NCBI RefSeq assembly: GCF_001684965.1
Contig: NZ_MAYG01000032.1
Span: forward strand, 93,019 to 157,018
Length of the DNA stretch: 64,000 nt
Source: Chryseobacterium arthrosphaerae
GTDB taxonomy: Bacteria > Bacteroidota > Bacteroidia > Flavobacteriales > Weeksellaceae
Reading direction: 5' to 3'
Both the position numbers and the translations under genes were made by a program. Below are positions 9,087 to 25,771 of the stretch, one piece after another. A model generated the notes under the pieces. It was not told the DNA's origin, ran no database searches, and was given only the letters and a program-made list of their open reading frames with translations. Within the stretch, counting starts at the first letter, position 1. The number at the start of each line of letters is the position of its first letter.

Positions 9087-10097
9087 ATGAAAAAAATCTT
9101 ATTTGGAACGCTTATGCTTGGTTTAATGACAGCCTGTAACAGTGACAATGTGAATAATCAGAATGAAGAATCCACAGATACTTCTGTTCCGGCTGCAGGA
9201 GCTGCCTCTCTGAGCAGAAGCTGTCTTTCTGAGGAGATAAGACAGGAAGCTTTACAGAACAGTCCGGAACTGAGACAGAGATTTGCCGAACTGGAAGCCA
9301 ATACCCAAAAATTCTCCGATGAAATACAACTGGGAAAAGTTCTTACAGACGGTACTGTTGAAATTCCTGTAGTGGTAAATGTTTTATACAGCAATGCTGC
9401 CGAAAATATTTCTGACGCAAGAATTGCAGAACAAATTGAAGTATTGAATGCTGATTACAGCGGCACCAATACAGACATCACAAAAGTTCCTTCAGAATTC
9501 CAGCCTGTAAAAGCCGGAGATGTAAAAGTAAAATTCAGACTGGCCAATACCGTAAGAAAGTCCACAACCACTACAAGCTGGGTAAAAGACACCATGAAAA
9601 AATCAGCTAACGGCGGAATAGATGCTACCAGCCCGGCCAATTATCTTAATATATGGATAGTGGGTAAAGTAGTAAGCAGTGACGGAAGAACCATTCTTGG
9701 ATACGCCACCTTCCCTGAGTCTGCCGGATTATGGAATGACGGAGTTGTAATTCCTGCCCCTTATTTTGGAAAAACAGGAGCCGCAGCCAACTTCAACCTG
9801 GGAAGAACAGCAACCCATGAGGTAGGACACTATCTTAATCTAAGACATATATGGGGGGATGCAAAATGTGGTGATGACCTGGTAGCTGATACCCCAACAC
9901 AAACCTCAGAAAATTACGATACCCCTACTTACCCGCTTTACAATCGTTGTAACGGGAAAAACAGATCCGTAATGTTTATGAATTATATGGATTATGTAAA
10001 CGACGCAGCTATGTTTATGTTTACAGCCGGACAAAAAACAAGAATGCAGTCTGTAGTAGCTTCTAACGGTGCCAGATCCGGATTAAGAGAATACTAA
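9087..10097 (+). CDS. M43-type zinc metalloprotease lipoprotein, copy 1
   Basis: 336 residues. A lipoprotein signal (LGLMTAC, acylated Cys17) is followed by a short acidic/Asn segment (CNSDN) and a pappalysin/cytophagalysin-like metalloprotease domain. The zinc site is HEVGHYLNLRH (His244, Glu245, His248, His254), and a Met-turn MNYMDY sits near residue 301. The usual Gly of HExxHxxGxxH is Asn in all three tandem copies. Conserved Cys near residue 261 and 288 may form a disulfide. It probably sits in the outer membrane and degrades extracellular protein. First of three tandem paralogues with closely matching leaders and terminators, about 250 bp downstream of the NarL-type regulator. Confidence 0.9.
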   Translation: MKKILFGTLMLGLMTACNSDNVNNQNEESTDTSVPAAGAASLSRSCLSEEIRQEALQNSPELRQRFAELEANTQKFSDEIQLGKVLTDGTVEIPVVVNVLYSNAAENISDARIAEQIEVLNADYSGTNTDITKVPSEFQPVKAGDVKVKFRLANTVRKSTTTTSWVKDTMKKSANGGIDATSPANYLNIWIVGKVVSSDGRTILGYATFPESAGLWNDGVVIPAPYFGKTGAAANFNLGRTATHEVGHYLNLRHIWGDAKCGDDLVADTPTQTSENYDTPTYPLYNRCNGKNRSVMFMNYMDYVNDAAMFMFTAGQKTRMQSVVASNGARSGLREY

Positions 10098-10120
10098 GCC
10101 CATAACCTTTAAAATATTTT

Positions 10121-10154
10121 AAATCTATCTCGGTTTCTGAGATAGATTTTTTTT
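10121..10154 (+). terminator. Terminator of protease copy 1
   Basis: Perfect 11-bp stem AAATCTATCTC / GAGATAGATTT with a 7-nt loop and a T-run. The same stem core recurs after copies 2 and 3. Confidence 0.85.
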
Positions 10155-10543
10155 ATCCTTTTACGCCTGTTAAATCTCAGAAAATCAGCAAAAACAACAA
10201 TAGAATGATAATATTATTATAAAAACATTAAAAAGAAGAATAAACCATGACATTCAGACCTTTTGTTTTGCTTAAAAAATAGTTTTCTGATTGAAATTAT
10301 AGTAAAAAACATTCTACTAATTAAACAAAAAACAAAATTATTTACATTTAAAAATACACTTAACAGTGAAATACAACTAAAAATCTATAAAATTGATTAA
10401 AATTCAAAATATAATCAATTAATATAAAATATAATCAATTAAAACACTGATTAAATAAGAATAATTTAAATAAAATGTAAAATAATTTGTATATCAATTT
10501 TAAATAATATAATTTCACATCCTCAAATTCAAAATATAGTGAT
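10155..10543 (+). other. AT-rich intergenic leader of protease copy 2
   Basis: No gene is visible in about 390 bp. The last 100 bp (from about 10445) is closely similar to the 100 bp before copy 1, and about 10320-10370 matches the region before copy 3 (shared ATTATTTACATTTAAAAA). At 10157-10180 there is a footprint, CTTTTACGCC..TTAAATCTCAG, that recurs after copy 3 at 13034-13056. The region therefore duplicated with the gene. Confidence 0.65.
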
Positions 10544-11560
10544 ATGAAAAAATTCATGTTTGGAGCCCTGATTCTGGGCTTACTGTCGGCCTGTAATACC
10601 GACAGCCTTACCAATCAAAATGAAACCCCTATGAACCAGGATGAGGTTCCTGCAGGAAGCGCTGCGAAAAGAAGCTGTCTTTCAGAAGAAATAAGAGAGA
10701 AAATGCTGCAGAAAAACCCTGCCCTGAGACAAAAAATGAATGAAATTGAAGTCGGAGCCGAGAGATATGCCAATAACCTTGCACTAGGCAAAGTTCTGGC
10801 AGATGGAACCGTAGAGATCCCGGTTGTTTTTAATGTAATCTACAACACTGCAACCCAGAATGTTTCTGATGCAAGAATCGCAGAACAGATCGCTGTTCTG
10901 AATGCTGATTACGGCGGCACCAACTCCGATGTTACTAAGATCCCTTCAGCATTTCAGCCCTCAGCAGCAGGTGATGTAAAAATCCGTTTCAAACTGGTGG
11001 CGACCAACCGGAAGCAAAGCTCAAAAACAGGCTGGCGATCTGATCTTGAAGAAATGAAAAAAGCCAGTACAGGAGGGATTACAGCTACTGATGTAACCAA
11101 AAACATGAATATCTGGGTAGTCAACTCAATACTTGACGAAAATAATCAGCCGGGGACCTTAGGGTATGCTTATTATCCTGAACATGCAGGACAATGGTAT
11201 GACGGTCTTGTAATTGGCTACAACTATATCGGGAAAACAGGAGCTTCTGCCCCATTCAATCTTGGAAGAACAGTAACGCATGAAGTAGGACATTACCTGA
11301 ATCTTCCACACCTTTGGGGATCAAGCGATGCAGGATGCCAGACAGATTACTCTAATGACACACCGCTTTCTCCCGGCCCTAACTATGGAACTCCAACTTA
11401 TCCCCTTAACAGATCCTGCGGAGGCGTAAGCCGTTCTCAGATGTTTATGAACTATATGGATTATGTAGATGATAAAGCCATGTTCATGTTCTCTGCCAAC
11501 CAGAAAACAAGAATGCAGGCTGTAGTTTCAGCATCTGGCCCAAGATCCGGTTTAAGATAA
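10544..11560 (+). CDS. M43-type zinc metalloprotease lipoprotein, copy 2
   Basis: 338 residues. Lipobox LGLLSAC (Cys16 or 17), then the same domain order as copy 1. The zinc site is HEVGHYLNLPHLWG with the same Asn-for-Gly change, and the Met-turn is MNYMDY. It is the most diverged copy: the region before the zinc site carries a two-residue-longer loop (LDENNQPG), and the segment after it (SSDAGCQTDYSNDTPLSP) differs from copies 1 and 3, so substrate preference may differ. Own AT-rich leader and own terminator. Confidence 0.9.
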   Translation: MKKFMFGALILGLLSACNTDSLTNQNETPMNQDEVPAGSAAKRSCLSEEIREKMLQKNPALRQKMNEIEVGAERYANNLALGKVLADGTVEIPVVFNVIYNTATQNVSDARIAEQIAVLNADYGGTNSDVTKIPSAFQPSAAGDVKIRFKLVATNRKQSSKTGWRSDLEEMKKASTGGITATDVTKNMNIWVVNSILDENNQPGTLGYAYYPEHAGQWYDGLVIGYNYIGKTGASAPFNLGRTVTHEVGHYLNLPHLWGSSDAGCQTDYSNDTPLSPGPNYGTPTYPLNRSCGGVSRSQMFMNYMDYVDDKAMFMFSANQKTRMQAVVSASGPRSGLR

Positions 11561-11591
11561 TCACCATCTTCATTAACAATAAAAACATTTA

Positions 11592-11622
11592 AAATCTATC
11601 TCTATCAGGGATAGATTTTTTT
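11592..11622 (+). terminator. Terminator of protease copy 2
   Basis: Stem AAATCTATC / GATAGATTT with a 9-nt loop and a T-run; same family as the terminators of copies 1 and 3. Confidence 0.8.
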
Positions 11623-11971
11623 CAGGTCCATAGTGAACGTATCATAACGCATATTTTATTGGGATCAGGTTCAAAAACCGGGGAACACATGATCCATTTT
11701 ATGACAAAACAAAAATCACATCTATCCTGATCTTCATTTCTATTAAAAATATTCTATATATTTAATAAAAAATAAAATTATTTACATTTAAAAACAAACT
11801 TTAATTTGAAATCCATCAACTTTAAATTAAATTAATTAAAATTCAAAACAAATATAAATACAGTGAATTATACTCAAATAAAACGTAATTAAATTAATAA
11901 TTACAAATATAATTTGTAAATAAAGTAAAAAGTACATAAATTAGTTTTCTCAAAAATTCAAAATAATGATT
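11623..11971 (+). other. AT-rich leader of protease copy 3, with palindrome
   Basis: No gene is visible. Positions 11750-11800 match the leader of copy 2. A perfect inverted repeat, TTACAAAT-ATA-ATTTGTAA (11901-11919), lies about 53 bp before the start codon; I did not find it intact in the other two leaders. It could be an operator or simply AT-rich chance sequence. Confidence 0.5.
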
Positions 11972-12976
11972 ATGAAAAAACTATTTTTTGGAGCACTTAT
12001 GCTCGGCGTAATGTCTGCCTGTAACAGCGACAACATTAATAATCAAAGTGAAGCTCCGGCTGATGAAACTGCCTTTTCCGCTGGTATAGCCCAGAGAGGA
12101 TGTGCTTCTGAAGAAATACGTCAGGAAGCTTTAAAAAACAGCCCTGAACTCAGACAAAGGTTCGCAGCCCTGGAAAACAATACAGAAAAATTCAGTAACG
12201 ATATCAAACTCGGAAGAGTGCTTGCTGACGGAACCGTGGAAATCCCTGTAGTTGTCAATGTCATCTACAAAACAACAGCAGAAAATGTTTCCGATTCAAG
12301 GATTGCAGAGCAGATTGCTGTTTTAAATGCCGATTACTCCGGTACAAACAGTGATGTCAGCAAAATTCCTTCGGAATTTCAGTCTGTAAGCTCCGGTGAT
12401 ACGAAGGTAAAGTTCAGATTGGTAAACACCATCAGAAAATCGACCTCCAAAACAAGCTGGTCTACGAATGACGATATGAAAAAGGCATCGAAAGGAGGAA
12501 TTAATGCTACCAATCCTACAAATTATCTGAACATCTGGGTGGTAGGCAAAATGACCAGCCAGGGAAGAACAATCCTGGGATACGCTACATTCCCTGAATC
12601 TGCCGGATTATCCAATGACGGTGTTGTAATTGCCGCACCATTTTTTGGCAAAACAGGCGCATCTTCTCCTTTCAACTTAGGAAGAACAGCGACTCATGAA
12701 GTAGGGCATTACCTGAATCTAAGACACATCTGGGGAGATGCCAATTGCGGAAATGACCAGGTAAGCGACACCCCTACCCAGACAACGGCTAATTACGGAA
12801 AACCTACTTATCCTCTTTATAATACCTGCGGTGGTGTCAACAGATCTGTGATGTTCATGAATTATATGGATTATGTAGATGACGGAGCCATGTTTATGTT
12901 CTCTGCCGGCCAAAAAACAAGAATGCAGGCTGTAGTAGCTTCTACCGGTGCCAGATCCGGATTAAGAGTATATTAA
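11972..12976 (+). CDS. M43-type zinc metalloprotease lipoprotein, copy 3
   Basis: 334 residues. Alignment with copies 1 and 2 places the start at the second ATG (11972); the ATG at 11966 would add Met-Ile. Lipobox LGVMSAC, zinc site HEVGHYLNLRHIWGDANCG and Met-turn MNYMDY. Closer to copy 1 than to copy 2, so the array probably arose by at least two duplications. Same presumed location (surface or outer-membrane lipoprotein) and activity as copy 1. Confidence 0.9.
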   Translation: MKKLFFGALMLGVMSACNSDNINNQSEAPADETAFSAGIAQRGCASEEIRQEALKNSPELRQRFAALENNTEKFSNDIKLGRVLADGTVEIPVVVNVIYKTTAENVSDSRIAEQIAVLNADYSGTNSDVSKIPSEFQSVSSGDTKVKFRLVNTIRKSTSKTSWSTNDDMKKASKGGINATNPTNYLNIWVVGKMTSQGRTILGYATFPESAGLSNDGVVIAAPFFGKTGASSPFNLGRTATHEVGHYLNLRHIWGDANCGNDQVSDTPTQTTANYGKPTYPLYNTCGGVNRSVMFMNYMDYVDDGAMFMFSAGQKTRMQAVVASTGARSGLRVY

Positions 12977-21979: not shown

Positions 21980-22189
21980 TTATATTGTTAAATTATTCTG
22001 ATCTTCTTCTACCGATAGGAAGTAATCCTGAAATCCGTCAGCTGAAATTGGCTGTTCACACTCCAGTTTCATAACTCCGATGGCTGTATAATGAGCAGCA
22101 AGTCTGATATGTCTGCTTTTGAGAAGGATTTTCAGTTTTTCCAGATTGATCTCTTTTTTTAAAACTGCCAGATAAGTGATCATATTCAT
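21980..22189 (-). CDS. Small protein resembling a free-standing subtilisin propeptide (I9-like inhibitor)
   Basis: 69 residues. The start ATG overlaps the subtilase stop (ATGA, 22186-22189), so translation is coupled; a second ATG two codons on is possible. The predicted order is strand (TYLAVLKK), helix (NLEKLKILLKSR), strand, strand (TAIGVMKLEC), helix, strand (YFLSVEED), the ferredoxin-like order of I9 propeptides, which often end in a V-x-x-VEED-like strand. The N-terminal 90 residues of the adjacent protease have the same order. It probably inhibits or chaperones that protease. It has no signal peptide. The homology is inferred from pattern alone. Confidence 0.65.
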   Translation of the reverse strand: MNMITYLAVLKKEINLEKLKILLKSRHIRLAAHYTAIGVMKLECEQPISADGFQDYFLSVEEDQNNLTI

Positions 22190-23442
22190 ATTTGTATTAG
22201 TCCGTTTCCTATGTCTCTATATTTAATTCCCTCAATGGGTCTGGCTTTATTTTCAATAAGTGCCCAGATCTCTTTTGCTGATGAACCGGAAAACTGTTCC
22301 ATATATAAAGCAGCAAGTCCTGAAACATGCGGTGCAGCCATACTGGTACCGCTCATAGCGTAGTAAAAATAATTTTTATTCTTTGCATTTTTGGGATAAG
22401 CACTCACAATGTCTACGCCGGGTGCACATACATTGATATTTCCTCCTGTGGAAGGATTAAGCCCTGCATTTGAAAATTTAGCAACCTTCATCTGCATATC
22501 AATCGCTGCCACTGCCATAATCGATTTTGAATTTGCCGGCATTGAAACCGGTTGCGGAACCTGCGGTCTGCTGCTGTCATTACCTGCCGCCGCTATAATA
22601 AGGCAGTTATTTTCCAAAGCTCTTTCCCCTATGGTTTCAAAAAGGATGGAAGGCTGATCATTGAGTCTCACCGGGGATGCGAGTGAAAGGGATAATATCC
22701 TGAACTTTTTTGTAATAGCCCAGTCTATAGCATCAATCACGCTACTGGTAGTACCTCTTCCGCTATCGGAGAGTACTTTGGCGATCTTCAGATTACAGCC
22801 GCCTGCAATTCCGTATCGTATATTCTTATCATTTCTGGTATTTCCTGTTGCAATGCCTGCGCAGTGTGTTCCGTGGCCATTGGGATCTCTGTTCCAGTCT
22901 TCTCCATCTATGAAAGATTTACCTTCAATTTCCCTGGATGAAAAATCCGGGTGGGAAACTTCAAGCCCTGTATCCAGAATACAAACATCGACTCCTTTTC
23001 CTGTATACAAAGCATTTTCAAGACCAATTGCTTTTAATCCCCATTCCATTTCAACCGGTGTTTTCTGAGGCAGAGGTTTGCCGGCCATGTATTTTTCAAG
23101 CTCTGAAATTTTTTCTGTAAGCCCTGCTGACTGTTTTTTAAGTTCACTGATGAGCTGCCATTCATCTGCAGGGAAAAACTCCCGTTCTTTTTCATAATAA
23201 ATGACAGGATTTGATTCGTTATCCACCGCACTCTTCAATTGCTCTTCATCCCCAGTTTCTACTACCAGAACGCCAAGATTTTTGTACAAAACACCATTAT
23301 CCTTATTAATGATTTCATAAGAACGGTTGTCACTGGAGAGAAATTCAGAGGAAGTAATACTCACCTCCAGCTCTTTCTCAACTTTTTTGATTGCGGTTTT
23401 CTGCTGATCTTCCAGCAGGACAATATATCTTCCGGTTTCCAT
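22186..23442 (-). CDS. S8 subtilisin-like serine protease, no signal peptide
   Basis: 418 residues. Residues 1-90 look like an I9-type prodomain, 95-120 is a short charged helix, and 140-418 is the peptidase domain. The catalytic set is complete: Asp157 (ILDTGLE), His190 (NGHGTHCAG), oxyanion Asn288 (AAAGND) and Ser367 (SGTSMAAPH). There is no signal peptide, lipobox or sorting domain, so unlike most Bacteroidota subtilases it appears to act inside the cell. Fourth gene of a tight operon behind a DUF2589-like protein and two unknown proteins, and overlapping a probable I9-like inhibitor gene. Confidence 0.92.
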   Translation of the reverse strand: METGRYIVLLEDQQKTAIKKVEKELEVSITSSEFLSSDNRSYEIINKDNGVLYKNLGVLVVETGDEEQLKSAVDNESNPVIYYEKEREFFPADEWQLISELKKQSAGLTEKISELEKYMAGKPLPQKTPVEMEWGLKAIGLENALYTGKGVDVCILDTGLEVSHPDFSSREIEGKSFIDGEDWNRDPNGHGTHCAGIATGNTRNDKNIRYGIAGGCNLKIAKVLSDSGRGTTSSVIDAIDWAITKKFRILSLSLASPVRLNDQPSILFETIGERALENNCLIIAAAGNDSSRPQVPQPVSMPANSKSIMAVAAIDMQMKVAKFSNAGLNPSTGGNINVCAPGVDIVSAYPKNAKNKNYFYYAMSGTSMAAPHVSGLAALYMEQFSGSSAKEIWALIENKARPIEGIKYRDIGNGLIQI

Positions 23443-23456
23443 AACGATCGTTTTTT

Positions 23457-24035
23457 TTAAATTAACTTCAGAAATACCTTTTCCAGAATAAGGAAAATAT
23501 CTTCCGGAATCACTGTCAGCCTGAGCTTCTTATTCACTCCCGAGATGGCTGTATTCTGTGCGATCAGAGAAGTCCAGAAACTTTCAATCTTTATAACAGA
23601 ATTCAGCTCCTTCAGTTTTTCATCATCCAAAATACCGTTCTGGTATAAGGAAACAATGATCCCTGAAACAAGCTCTTCAGCATCTTCCAGCTTTTTATTT
23701 TCCTTCGCATATATTTCCATCAGAATATCATAAATGTCTTCTATCCCATTGAATGAAAATCCCCAGAGAAGCTCACGTCTACCGGTGTTTATTTTTTCCA
23801 TTTTTATAGGATTAAAGCCTCTTTTAACCGTCGCAATCCTATTCATGATTTTCAGAACTTCAGATTCGTGGCTGGTGTTCCCTTTTGTTTTGAAATACTC
23901 CAGGGTTTCATTTAAGAAAATATCAAAGCGGGAATCAAAGTCAAAGGATTTTGACAGGTATAAAGCCTGCACTTCATTGAAATCTTCCAGAAGCTCCTTC
24001 AGTTTCTGCACTGTATGATGAATAAGTTCCTGCAT
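23457..24035 (-). CDS. Hypothetical helical protein in the DUF2589/subtilase operon
   Basis: 192 residues, soluble, mostly alpha-helical, no signal peptide. No family was recognised. A central RREL-x-WGFSF segment separates a helical N-terminal half from a helical C-terminal half. The start codon shares one base with the upstream stop (TAATG at 24033-24037), and the subtilase starts 15 bp after its own stop, so it is co-translated with its neighbours. It could be an adaptor or a substrate of the protease; the sequence alone cannot decide. Confidence 0.75.
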   Translation of the reverse strand: MQELIHHTVQKLKELLEDFNEVQALYLSKSFDFDSRFDIFLNETLEYFKTKGNTSHESEVLKIMNRIATVKRGFNPIKMEKINTGRRELLWGFSFNGIEDIYDILMEIYAKENKKLEDAEELVSGIIVSLYQNGILDDEKLKELNSVIKIESFWTSLIAQNTAISGVNKKLRLTVIPEDIFLILEKVFLKLI

Positions 24036-24733
24036 TACTCAAAAGTTATCTGTTCTATTTCCTTACCGTCTTTATCTTTGTATGACACAATCCTTATTCC
24101 TTCTTCCTCCATTTCAACATGAAGGTTGATGAATAATTTATCTCTGTCTTCCGCCGCGCTTGTGTTGGGATCAATGTAAATATTGTTCAGTTTGGCATTG
24201 ACCAGCGTATATCTATTGAGTAAAACTTTTGAAAAAATCTCTTTCAGTTCTTCTATTTCATCTTCACCAGTTCCTTCCTGTGGCCGGAAGATTCCGGAAT
24301 TAAGAATTTTGATTTTATTTCTGAGATCAAGCTTAAGCACTTCATTGGCGGGAACTTTACCAAACTTCTGATCATTTTTTTCCAGTCTGCTAAAGAGTGA
24401 TTTGAATTCTTCAGTCTGGATCTGTCTTTTTGTGATCTCAGGAATATTCAGTTTTTTCTCTTTATTTACGAGACGGATTCTTTCATTCATTTCTGTAACA
24501 AACTGATCCTGATTCAGTTTAAAGTTATACTTGGGTTCCGAATCTATATCTGTAATTTTAATGGGAATATCCATTTTCACACAGGGCAGCGCATACCGTG
24601 GCACTTTAAAATACTTAAGGTATTCGTGACGGGCATATTCTTTGGCAATAAGAACGGCATTTTCGTCAGCCTTTTTACGAGCCTGAATTATCTCATTGTT
24701 GAGATAATCCAGGTAATCTGATAATTTGATCAT
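24035..24733 (-). CDS. Hypothetical protein associated with DUF2589
   Basis: 232 residues, no signal peptide. A helical N-terminal segment (SDYLDYLNNEIIQARKKAD, then YARHEYLKYF) is followed by a beta-rich part beginning VPRYALPCVKMDIPIKI, then a charged helical stretch and a C-terminal beta-rich tail. From memory, proteins with this helix-then-VPRF/Y start accompany DUF2589 genes in other bacteria; that link is recollection, not a search. Starts 15 bp after the DUF2589-like gene and shares one base with the next gene. Confidence 0.72.
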   Translation of the reverse strand: MIKLSDYLDYLNNEIIQARKKADENAVLIAKEYARHEYLKYFKVPRYALPCVKMDIPIKITDIDSEPKYNFKLNQDQFVTEMNERIRLVNKEKKLNIPEITKRQIQTEEFKSLFSRLEKNDQKFGKVPANEVLKLDLRNKIKILNSGIFRPQEGTGEDEIEELKEIFSKVLLNRYTLVNAKLNNIYIDPNTSAAEDRDKLFINLHVEMEEEGIRIVSYKDKDGKEIEQITFE

Positions 24734-24748
24734 TCTTCGTAAATTTTA

Positions 24749-25636
24749 TTATTGCGAAAGAAGTCCAAGAACTTTTTCAAGACCTGCAGGCATTTCGTCA
24801 TTGGTCGCCCTTACTTTTACGCCAAGGGAATATTCTTTTTCAACCTTGATCCCTGTGCTGGACGATCTTTTGTATGACACATCCACTTTGAACTTTACAG
24901 GACCAAAGCCACCGGACGCTCCTGCGTTGATCCCGAATTCATCACTTACATCTTTAGTGTATGTTGAATTCAGCTTAACGTTAAAGTCTACTTCACAGGT
25001 TTCAATCCTGAAACTCGGAACATTCAGTAAGGCTACAAAAGGAACGACAATCTCTACCGGATCAGATTTTGTTTTTGGATTGTCATTGCTTACGGGTTTA
25101 TCAGGATCGAAGTCCGGATTGGGAATCGTCTTGGTATATTTAAACTCTGCCATTCTCAATTTTTTCGGGCTATTGGCGTTGGCAGGGTCCGTAAGCTCAA
25201 AACCGACTTCATTAATGAAATTCACCGTAGCAATAGAGGCATTAGACTGTGCTTTTACACAAGCATCCAAAGGTCCGCCAATAATGGTTGCGAAATCTAT
25301 ACTTCCCAATTCTGCGGCAAAATCTGCACTGGCAGCATCCGAAGTTTTGAAGATTTCTTCATCTGCAGCCATCTTACCAGCTATCAGTTTCATAATTTCT
25401 GAAGAGGCACCGGAAAAAGATTTTTCCCACTTTTCATCATAATTCTTTTTGAAGTCATCTACAATATTCAACAGCTCCTTGTTGGTAAGTGTTCCCAATT
25501 CGGATACTTCAATTCCGGATACTTTTTCGTAGACTGCAGGGGTAAGCACTTTTTCCACTCCTGATAAAAGATCGATCAACTCATTTTTTGTTTTTTTGGC
25601 GTGACTTGTTTCAAGCACTGATTTTAATGTTTCCAT
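24749..25636 (-). CDS. DUF2589-like protein, first gene of the protease operon
   Basis: 295 residues. A helical N-terminal domain (1-110) precedes a DUF2589-like region that opens IDFATIIGGPLDACVKAQ (113-130) and continues SIATVNFINEVGF. A beta-rich domain (about 155-275) follows, with paired strands (VPFVALLNVPSFRIETCEVDF, then a V-x-Y-K-R repeat-like strand). There is no signal peptide. The biochemical function of DUF2589 is not known to me. The beta-rich half could be an assembly or pore-like module, which is speculation. It leads an operon of five genes and has an exact -7 box at 25668-25675. Confidence 0.78.
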   Translation of the reverse strand: METLKSVLETSHAKKTKNELIDLLSGVEKVLTPAVYEKVSGIEVSELGTLTNKELLNIVDDFKKNYDEKWEKSFSGASSEIMKLIAGKMAADEEIFKTSDAASADFAAELGSIDFATIIGGPLDACVKAQSNASIATVNFINEVGFELTDPANANSPKKLRMAEFKYTKTIPNPDFDPDKPVSNDNPKTKSDPVEIVVPFVALLNVPSFRIETCEVDFNVKLNSTYTKDVSDEFGINAGASGGFGPVKFKVDVSYKRSSSTGIKVEKEYSLGVKVRATNDEMPAGLEKVLGLLSQ

Positions 25637-25667: not shown

Positions 25668-25675
25668 CAAAATTA
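25668..25675 (-). promoter_or_regulatory. Candidate -7 box of the DUF2589/subtilase operon
   Basis: TAATTTTG on the minus strand matches TAnnTTTG exactly, 32 bp upstream of the ATG at 25636. The nearest upstream TTG lies only 13 bp away, too close for a standard -33, so an activator may be needed. Confidence 0.5.
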
Positions 25676-25736: not shown

Positions 25737-25771
25737 AAAAACAAAAGCCCGAACTGTAGAAGTTCAGGCTT
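25737..25771 (-). terminator. Terminator of the second M1 peptidase gene
   Basis: Stem AAGCCCGAACT / AGTTCAGGCTT (25745-25771, one mismatch) with a 5-nt loop; on the minus strand it is followed by TTTGTTTTTT. It separates the M1 gene from the protease operon. Confidence 0.85.

Follow-up and report, generated by a model that had tools for sequence, protein, structure and literature searches.

Why would a bacterium encode a cytoplasmic subtilase in one tightly packed operon with a DUF2589 protein, a member of a widely scattered family that has no assigned function in Pfam? The question is raised by five minus-strand genes at positions 21980-25636 of a 64,000-nucleotide stretch of Chryseobacterium arthrosphaerae DNA (contig NZ_MAYG01000032.1), hereafter called the window. 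A first-pass annotation had singled out these genes and offered two readings, a regulated intracellular protease switch or a conflict/defence module. Our neighbourhood survey found the five genes conserved together, and we tentatively read the operon, at a little less than an even chance, as a cytoplasmic protease switch added to a widespread DUF2589 module. The genes are numbered g1 to g5 in order of transcription; L numbers denote fetched loci and G numbers genomes, G000 being the window genome.

24749..25636, minus strand: g1, 295-aa DUF2589 protein bearing an additional helical domain at its N-terminus (Pfam PF11655, 82.8 bits)
24035..24733, minus strand: g2, 232 aa, matching no known family, a frequent DUF2589 partner
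23457..24035, minus strand: g3, 192 aa, matching no known family, accompanying g1 and g2 in many loci
22186..23442, minus strand: g4, cytoplasmic S8 subtilase of 418 aa with Asp157/His190/Ser367 and Asn288
21980..22189, minus strand: g5, 69 aa, free protein resembling I9-type inhibitors in its AlphaFold2-predicted fold and by structure search

All five open reading frames (ORFs) were found, and most of the first-pass description stood. The g1-g2 gap is 15 bp and the g2-g3 and g4-g5 overlaps are 1 and 4 bp, as reported, but the g3-g4 gap is 14 bp and not 15 bp. The score of g1 lies well above the curated DUF2589 cut-off of 23 bits, and g2 and g3 are unknowns, as had been stated. g4 is a complete S8 protease, scoring 175.6 bits, above the Pfam cut-off, and an alignment of 15 sequences shows no variation at Asp157, His190, Asn288 or Ser367. 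A signal peptide is visible on none of the five N-termini, which were read by eye and not with a signal-peptide program. Two features had been overlooked, namely a wider g1-g2-g3 module that exists without the protease and a protease-linked N-terminal domain (N-domain) on the DUF2589 protein.

The fetched loci, translated in six frames, were searched with a profile for each of the five proteins and one for the g1 N-domain, leaving out loci shorter than 8 kb, the repeats L180, L181, L182 and L187 (of L059, L061, L060 and L002, respectively) and the stray L183. This gave 86 loci of at least 8 kb with a DUF2589 gene, 43 with the N-domain and 43 without; the set is dominated by Chryseobacterium and does not represent 86 independent lineages, and some of these loci also supplied the profiles. 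In each of the 43 N-domain loci the genes run g1, g2, g3, subtilase, g5 along one strand, and the recurrence of all five shows that the cluster is not a chance arrangement. Neither the subtilase nor g5 was found in any of the 43 loci lacking the N-domain. A co-occurrence tally of loci of at least 8 kb gave 44 with both the N-domain and S8, 46 with neither and no mixed case. The shorter loci comprised 3 with both, 14 with the N-domain and no full S8 gene (absent or cut) and 71 with neither; 14 of these 17 short N-domain loci lack a full subtilase because their flanks or contigs end. No complete locus in the set separates the subtilase, g5 and the g1 N-domain.

A search led by the subtilase, which avoids the bias of a g1-led locus collection, gave the same picture. 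The subtilase was detected in 52 of 171 genomes of the genus (E up to 1e-100), 51 of which have a long DUF2589 gene on the same contig, with low-end coordinates 1.8-2.7 kb apart. The exception, G047 (locus L186), contains a decayed operon between the same flanking genes, with the subtilase broken and g5 intact; no g1-g3 ORF is left there, and other small ORFs lie in between. The one genome with DUF2589 only, G128, has the genes here, subtilase included, in frameshifted pieces in its assembly. Across a sample of the order, 11 of 246 genomes carry the subtilase (E up to 1e-85), beside a long DUF2589 gene in 11 of 11; ten are Chryseobacterium genomes already counted, and the eleventh, from another genus of the same family, has the C-terminal end of g1 (in a short locus), g2, g3, g4 and g5. 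With the genes kept together in this way and an I9 fold predicted for g5, the first-pass reading of a regulated intracellular protease gains support. The same data make it very unlikely that g4 is a housekeeping intracellular subtilisin with its inhibitor, like Bacillus Isp1/IPI, and that g1-g3 are merely co-transcribed with it: g4 is always linked to g1-g3 in the loci examined, and the subtilase is present in only 52 of the 171 genus genomes.

The architecture of g4 bears on this housekeeping role in both directions.

22240..23001, minus strand: Peptidase_S8 domain of g4, residues 148-401 (Pfam match)
23173..23442, minus strand: N-terminal region of g4, about residues 1-90, possibly an I9-like prodomain according to a weak profile comparison against shuffles

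Only 17 residues follow the S8 match, too few to accommodate a type IX C-terminal secretion domain of the usual size. The top PDB hit for the g4 sequence, 7y6m (E 3.2e-36), is an intracellular serine protease, and an intracellular subtilisin has been reported to have a protein inhibitor, IPI (PMC3901451), both of which speak for the housekeeping explanation; like the intracellular subtilisin (ISP)/IPI pair, g4 is a signal-less cytosolic S8 protease accompanied by a free, predicted protein inhibitor. The resemblance does not extend further. The ISP propeptide consists of 16-20 residues with a LIPY/F motif (PMC6220982), whereas in g4 the S8 match begins at residue 148, after 147 residues without that motif, and we rejected its assignment as a classical ISP. 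IPI likewise has an Ig-like fold (PMC3901451), and not the I9-like fold predicted for g5.

Two further assignments of g4 were tried and rejected. It scores 22 bits against the NCBIfam cut-off of 900 for IteS of the IetAS anti-phage system, in which the subtilase IteS has an ATPase partner, IetA, and 144.6 bits against the equivalog cut-off of 278.75 for the type VII secretion mycosin. Residues 100-416 also match phrog_3677, a 1125-position phage 'protease' family (E 4e-62), indicating that large phage proteins carry a related subtilase.

The likeness of g5 to I9 inhibitors is clear in its predicted fold only. The AlphaFold2 model (pLDDT 87.8) has the order β-α-β-β-α-β, that is, the propeptide fold with a C-terminal tail, and 19 of the top 20 rows of the structure search are subtilisin propeptides, proenzymes or POIA1, many rows being one protein. 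By sequence, Pfam I9 (PF05922) has no match in genome G000 and none in 16 g5 proteins at E up to 10, a setting in which the HMMER filters drop most weak matches; a PDB profile search with g5 returned just two chance-level matches, and hhalign of g5 against I9 was negative or weak. In profile comparisons, the score of the g4 N-terminal region against g5 was reached by 0 of 100 shuffles, that of I9 against the g4 N-terminal region by 1 of 100 and that of I9 against g5 by 3 of 100; the shuffles break column order and are an easy null, and the hhalign probabilities are below 6%. g5 differs from known I9 propeptides and POIA1 in having no Pfam I9 match, a sequence identity of 10-13% and a gene of its own within the operon of its presumed protease. 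Judged from the modelled fold, g5 is a candidate inhibitor of g4; the first-pass annotation had called it a probable I9-like inhibitor.

If g4 is a regulated protease, what might it cut? We consider g1 the likely target, because its extra N-terminal domain is seen only where the protease is present.

24758..25288, minus strand: DUF2589 domain of g1, residues 117-293 (Pfam match)
25379..25636, minus strand: N-domain of g1, approximately residues 1-86, observed only where the DUF2589 protein is linked to a subtilase
25325..25378, minus strand: linker of g1, residues 87-104, proposed cleavage region (from model and alignment)

The extra sequence before the DUF2589 domain amounts to about 86-104 residues, and among the fetched loci all 61 matches to the N-domain profile fall within DUF2589 ORFs. 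Ten of 16 aligned proteins lacking the N-domain begin at residues 99-104 of the window g1; the other six begin earlier in the alignment, and L049-L051 among them carry a different N-terminal stretch. Across 38 N-domain rows, sequence entropy is 1.36 for residues 87-104 and 1.31 for the N-domain, and drops to 0.30 for residues 105-118. Within the variable linker, only Asp92 and Phe96 (codon at 25349-25351) are invariant in these rows. The AlphaFold2 model of g1 has a pLDDT of 63 overall and below 50 for residues 87-108, and a structure search with this poor model gave no good match. The N-domain proteins group together in a tree built from 80 DUF2589 cores, except for the frameshifted fragment L048 (branch support was not read), so that N-domain and subtilase may have been paired in one event and kept so since.

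Subtilisins prefer large hydrophobic residues at P1. Given this preference, a variable, low-confidence linker with an invariant Phe96, and the Phe cut attributed to the fungal subtilase HET-Q2, we propose that g4 may cleave g1 within residues 87-104, near Phe96. HET-Q2 is thought to cut the gasdermin HET-Q1 at P1 Phe238 (PMC10989679). As in the HET-Q1/HET-Q2 and Q2-like pairs described there, the S8 protease gene adjoins the gene of a product that would be activated by the loss of a terminal piece. The two systems differ in that g1, whose model is weak, matched no gasdermin in the comparisons made here, in that the piece lost would be N-terminal in g1 and not C-terminal, and in that the operon adds the free I9-type inhibitor-like g5 and two further proteins.

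The protease switch that we tentatively favour would work as follows. Two elements would keep g4 inactive: its own N-terminal region, which matches I9 weakly, and g5. The flexible tail at the C-terminus of g5 would sit in the g4 active site, as with subtilisin propeptides and POIA1. A signal would lift the inhibition, with g5 being degraded or displaced or g4 autoprocessed. g4 would then cut g1 in the disordered linker at about residues 87-104, most plausibly near Phe96, removing the N-domain and leaving a protein that begins about where most N-domain-less DUF2589 proteins begin. The released DUF2589 protein would act together with g2 and g3, in what we guess is an assembly directed at the cell envelope.

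The trio itself is a module that also exists without the protease. Of the 43 loci lacking the N-domain, 26 have the DUF2589 gene followed by g2, and 17 of these also have g3 while 9 do not; the remaining 17 have neither partner. These loci resemble the operon in that order of genes and differ from it in having no subtilase, g5 or such an N-terminal domain. Tandem DUF2589 genes also occur. These features are expected of structural parts and lend weight to a possible, if rather improbable, alternative in which g1-g3 build an intracellular multi-subunit structure, g4 is a maturation protease that trims g1 during assembly, and g5 serves as folding helper and brake, with no on/off switch. The slow evolution of the operon genes described below would also suit such an assembly, as does the dual nature of prodomains as folding chaperones and inhibitors noted in PMC6220982.

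The five-gene cluster is kept together in several orders of Bacteroidota. The g1 search returned 61 loci, including one with 99% identity in a Chryseobacterium contig, from Chryseobacterium, Kaistella, Petrimonas, Proteiniphilum, other Bacteroidales, Tenacibaculum, Leeuwenhoekiella, Saprospiraceae, Chitinophaga, Segetibacter and some other phyla. A DUF2589 gene is present in 81 of 173 genomes of the genus, in a long (~295 aa) or a short (~200 aa) form, and in 28 of 395 genomes of an even draw of Bacteroidota, among whose fetched loci only those of G000, G018, G024 and G070 have the N-domain; the corresponding counts are 8 of 349 in a draw around G577 and 2 of 235 in one around G575. Of 8000 scored candidate proteins, 2294 belonged to DUF2589. 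The g1 of a Bacteroidales locus (L036) is 75% identical to that of the window and the g1 of a Kaistella locus (L037) 73%, Kaistella belonging to the window organism's own family. In each of 35 Chryseobacterium loci the operon has the same neighbours, a short-chain dehydrogenase gene and an endonuclease/exonuclease/phosphatase gene, joined in 27 of the 35 by an M1 peptidase gene; none of these three genes was found at 60% identity in eight tested loci of other genera. A Bacteroidales g1 as close as the Kaistella one, together with flanks that are fixed in Chryseobacterium and were not found in the loci of other genera tested, hints at a past transfer of the operon between orders followed by a fixed place in the genus.

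The first-pass alternative of a conflict/defence module fared less well. In its most explicit form, the DUF2589 protein would be a membrane-active killer restrained by the N-domain and freed by the subtilase, as in HET-Q2 and the gasdermin HET-Q1. Such a role, which we regard as unlikely, would agree with the adjacency of an S8 protease gene to an effector-like gene whose product has a terminal domain that could be split off, with a low-confidence Ser/Thr/Gly-rich stretch between long strands in the g1 model (residues 224-269), and with two observations from other DUF2589 loci: a trypsin-like peptidase without a visible signal peptide inside the DUF2589 cluster of L125 (L125:4165-5010) and a pair of ThsB-type TIR proteins some 3 kb from DUF2589 in L130 (L130:741-1610). 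Against it, neither the sequence of g1 nor the fold of its weak model matches a gasdermin or pore-former, and PADLOC matched only S8 models on the five proteins. g1-like DUF2589 occurs in 1 of 50,697 phage records and 3 of 72,556 plasmid records; this scarcity, the PADLOC result and the constant chromosomal flanks leave a mobile or defence island unsupported. Comparing the window with L003 and L005, dN/dS is 0.03-0.05 for g1 and g2, 0.04-0.12 for g3, 0.07-0.08 for g4 and 0.11-0.14 for g5, rough ratios given that most dS values exceed 1; against L020, dS is saturated for four of the five genes. Ratios of 0.03-0.14 indicate that g2, g3 and the small g5 are real genes under purifying selection, and an arms race would fit them less well than a conserved role in physiology.

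Sequences upstream of g1 were also inspected.

25745..25771, minus strand: terminator-like hairpin between the operon and the upstream M1 peptidase gene
25668..25675, minus strand: TAnnTTTG box (TAATTTTG), 39 nt before the g1 start

The number of hairpins in the terminator scan is not above that in its shuffles. The TAnnTTTG box, which we take to be promoter-like in Bacteroidota, lies at -52..-35 in 36 of the 43 N-domain loci and within -90..-15 in 39 of them. Upstream of the operon the full Bacteroidota promoter motif was not found, the TAnnTTTG half alone being present, and a sigma-70 scan gave fewer sites than in shuffles.

Do other DUF2589 loci suggest what the trio does? A neighbour survey of 29 hand-picked genes, several without a match and with no control, found peptidoglycan-active genes near DUF2589, namely CHAP, Amidase_3, Muramidase, Phage_lysozyme, M15 (M15_4) and PG_binding (PG_binding_1), each in a different locus. 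The loci concerned (L129, L138, L155, L174, L181 and L182) are of different lineages, and no clear signal peptide was seen by eye in the five of these neighbours whose start was visible. We regard this uncontrolled peptidoglycan-hydrolase neighbourhood as a lead. A possible resemblance of the DUF2589 helix to RebB (R-body) is another. A TcdB-like protein is also among the neighbours, and an eCIS_core protein (L059:8307-10124) lies about 0.7 kb from a DUF2589-g2 pair of Kofleriaceae.

Several other arrangements were observed. In L124, L126, L131, L132 and L141, DUF2589 genes, mostly several in a row, are found with a 63-77-aa CxxC zinc-ribbon-like protein. Loci L061, L154, L155, L174 and L182, from Mariprofundus, Vibrio, Chitinispirillales and other lineages, encode a small protein (about 90 aa) with a shared sequence pattern after or between their DUF2589 genes; the L154 copy, the one scanned, has no Pfam family. 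The short Chryseobacterium DUF2589 trio adjoins a patatin-like phospholipase gene (L133-L136 and other short-type loci among L063-L092). Neither this gene nor the M15 peptidase was retained as a partner of DUF2589: M15_4 is a core gene, present in 165 of 171 genus genomes, and patatin is present there without DUF2589, M15 beside it, in L184 (the window genome) and L188. With M15 near-universal and patatin lacking DUF2589 in two genomes, the place looks like an insertion spot. Elsewhere in the window, positions 9087-12976 hold three tandem paralogues of 336-338 aa with N-termini that look lipoprotein-like by eye; the second is 58% and the third 75% identical to the first, which matches the Peptidase_M43 metalloproteases.

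The sole mention of DUF2589 in a full-text literature search was PMC3949148, which reports that the Archaeoglobus fulgidus genes AF0414-AF0417, 'short, DUF2589 related genes', are upregulated on lactate. A search on subtilases with antiphage, gasdermin and Inhibitor_I9 operons, which left most subscription papers uncovered, gave no title describing the operon.

The most far-reaching possibility, which we consider quite unlikely, is an undescribed protease-gated effector system in which an I9-caged subtilase would clip g1 at Phe96 and the released g1, with g2 and g3, would attack or remodel the envelope of its own or another cell; the operon would then be an independently invented bacterial counterpart of the fungal subtilase-gasdermin pair. 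The protease switch that we tentatively prefer would, if true, be a first point of entry to DUF2589 and supply an example of a bacterial operon encoding protease, inhibitor and substrate together. The co-occurrence of these genes makes DUF2589 a testable biochemical question, namely whether g4 cuts g1 between its N-domain and the canonical start of the family and whether g5 stops g4.

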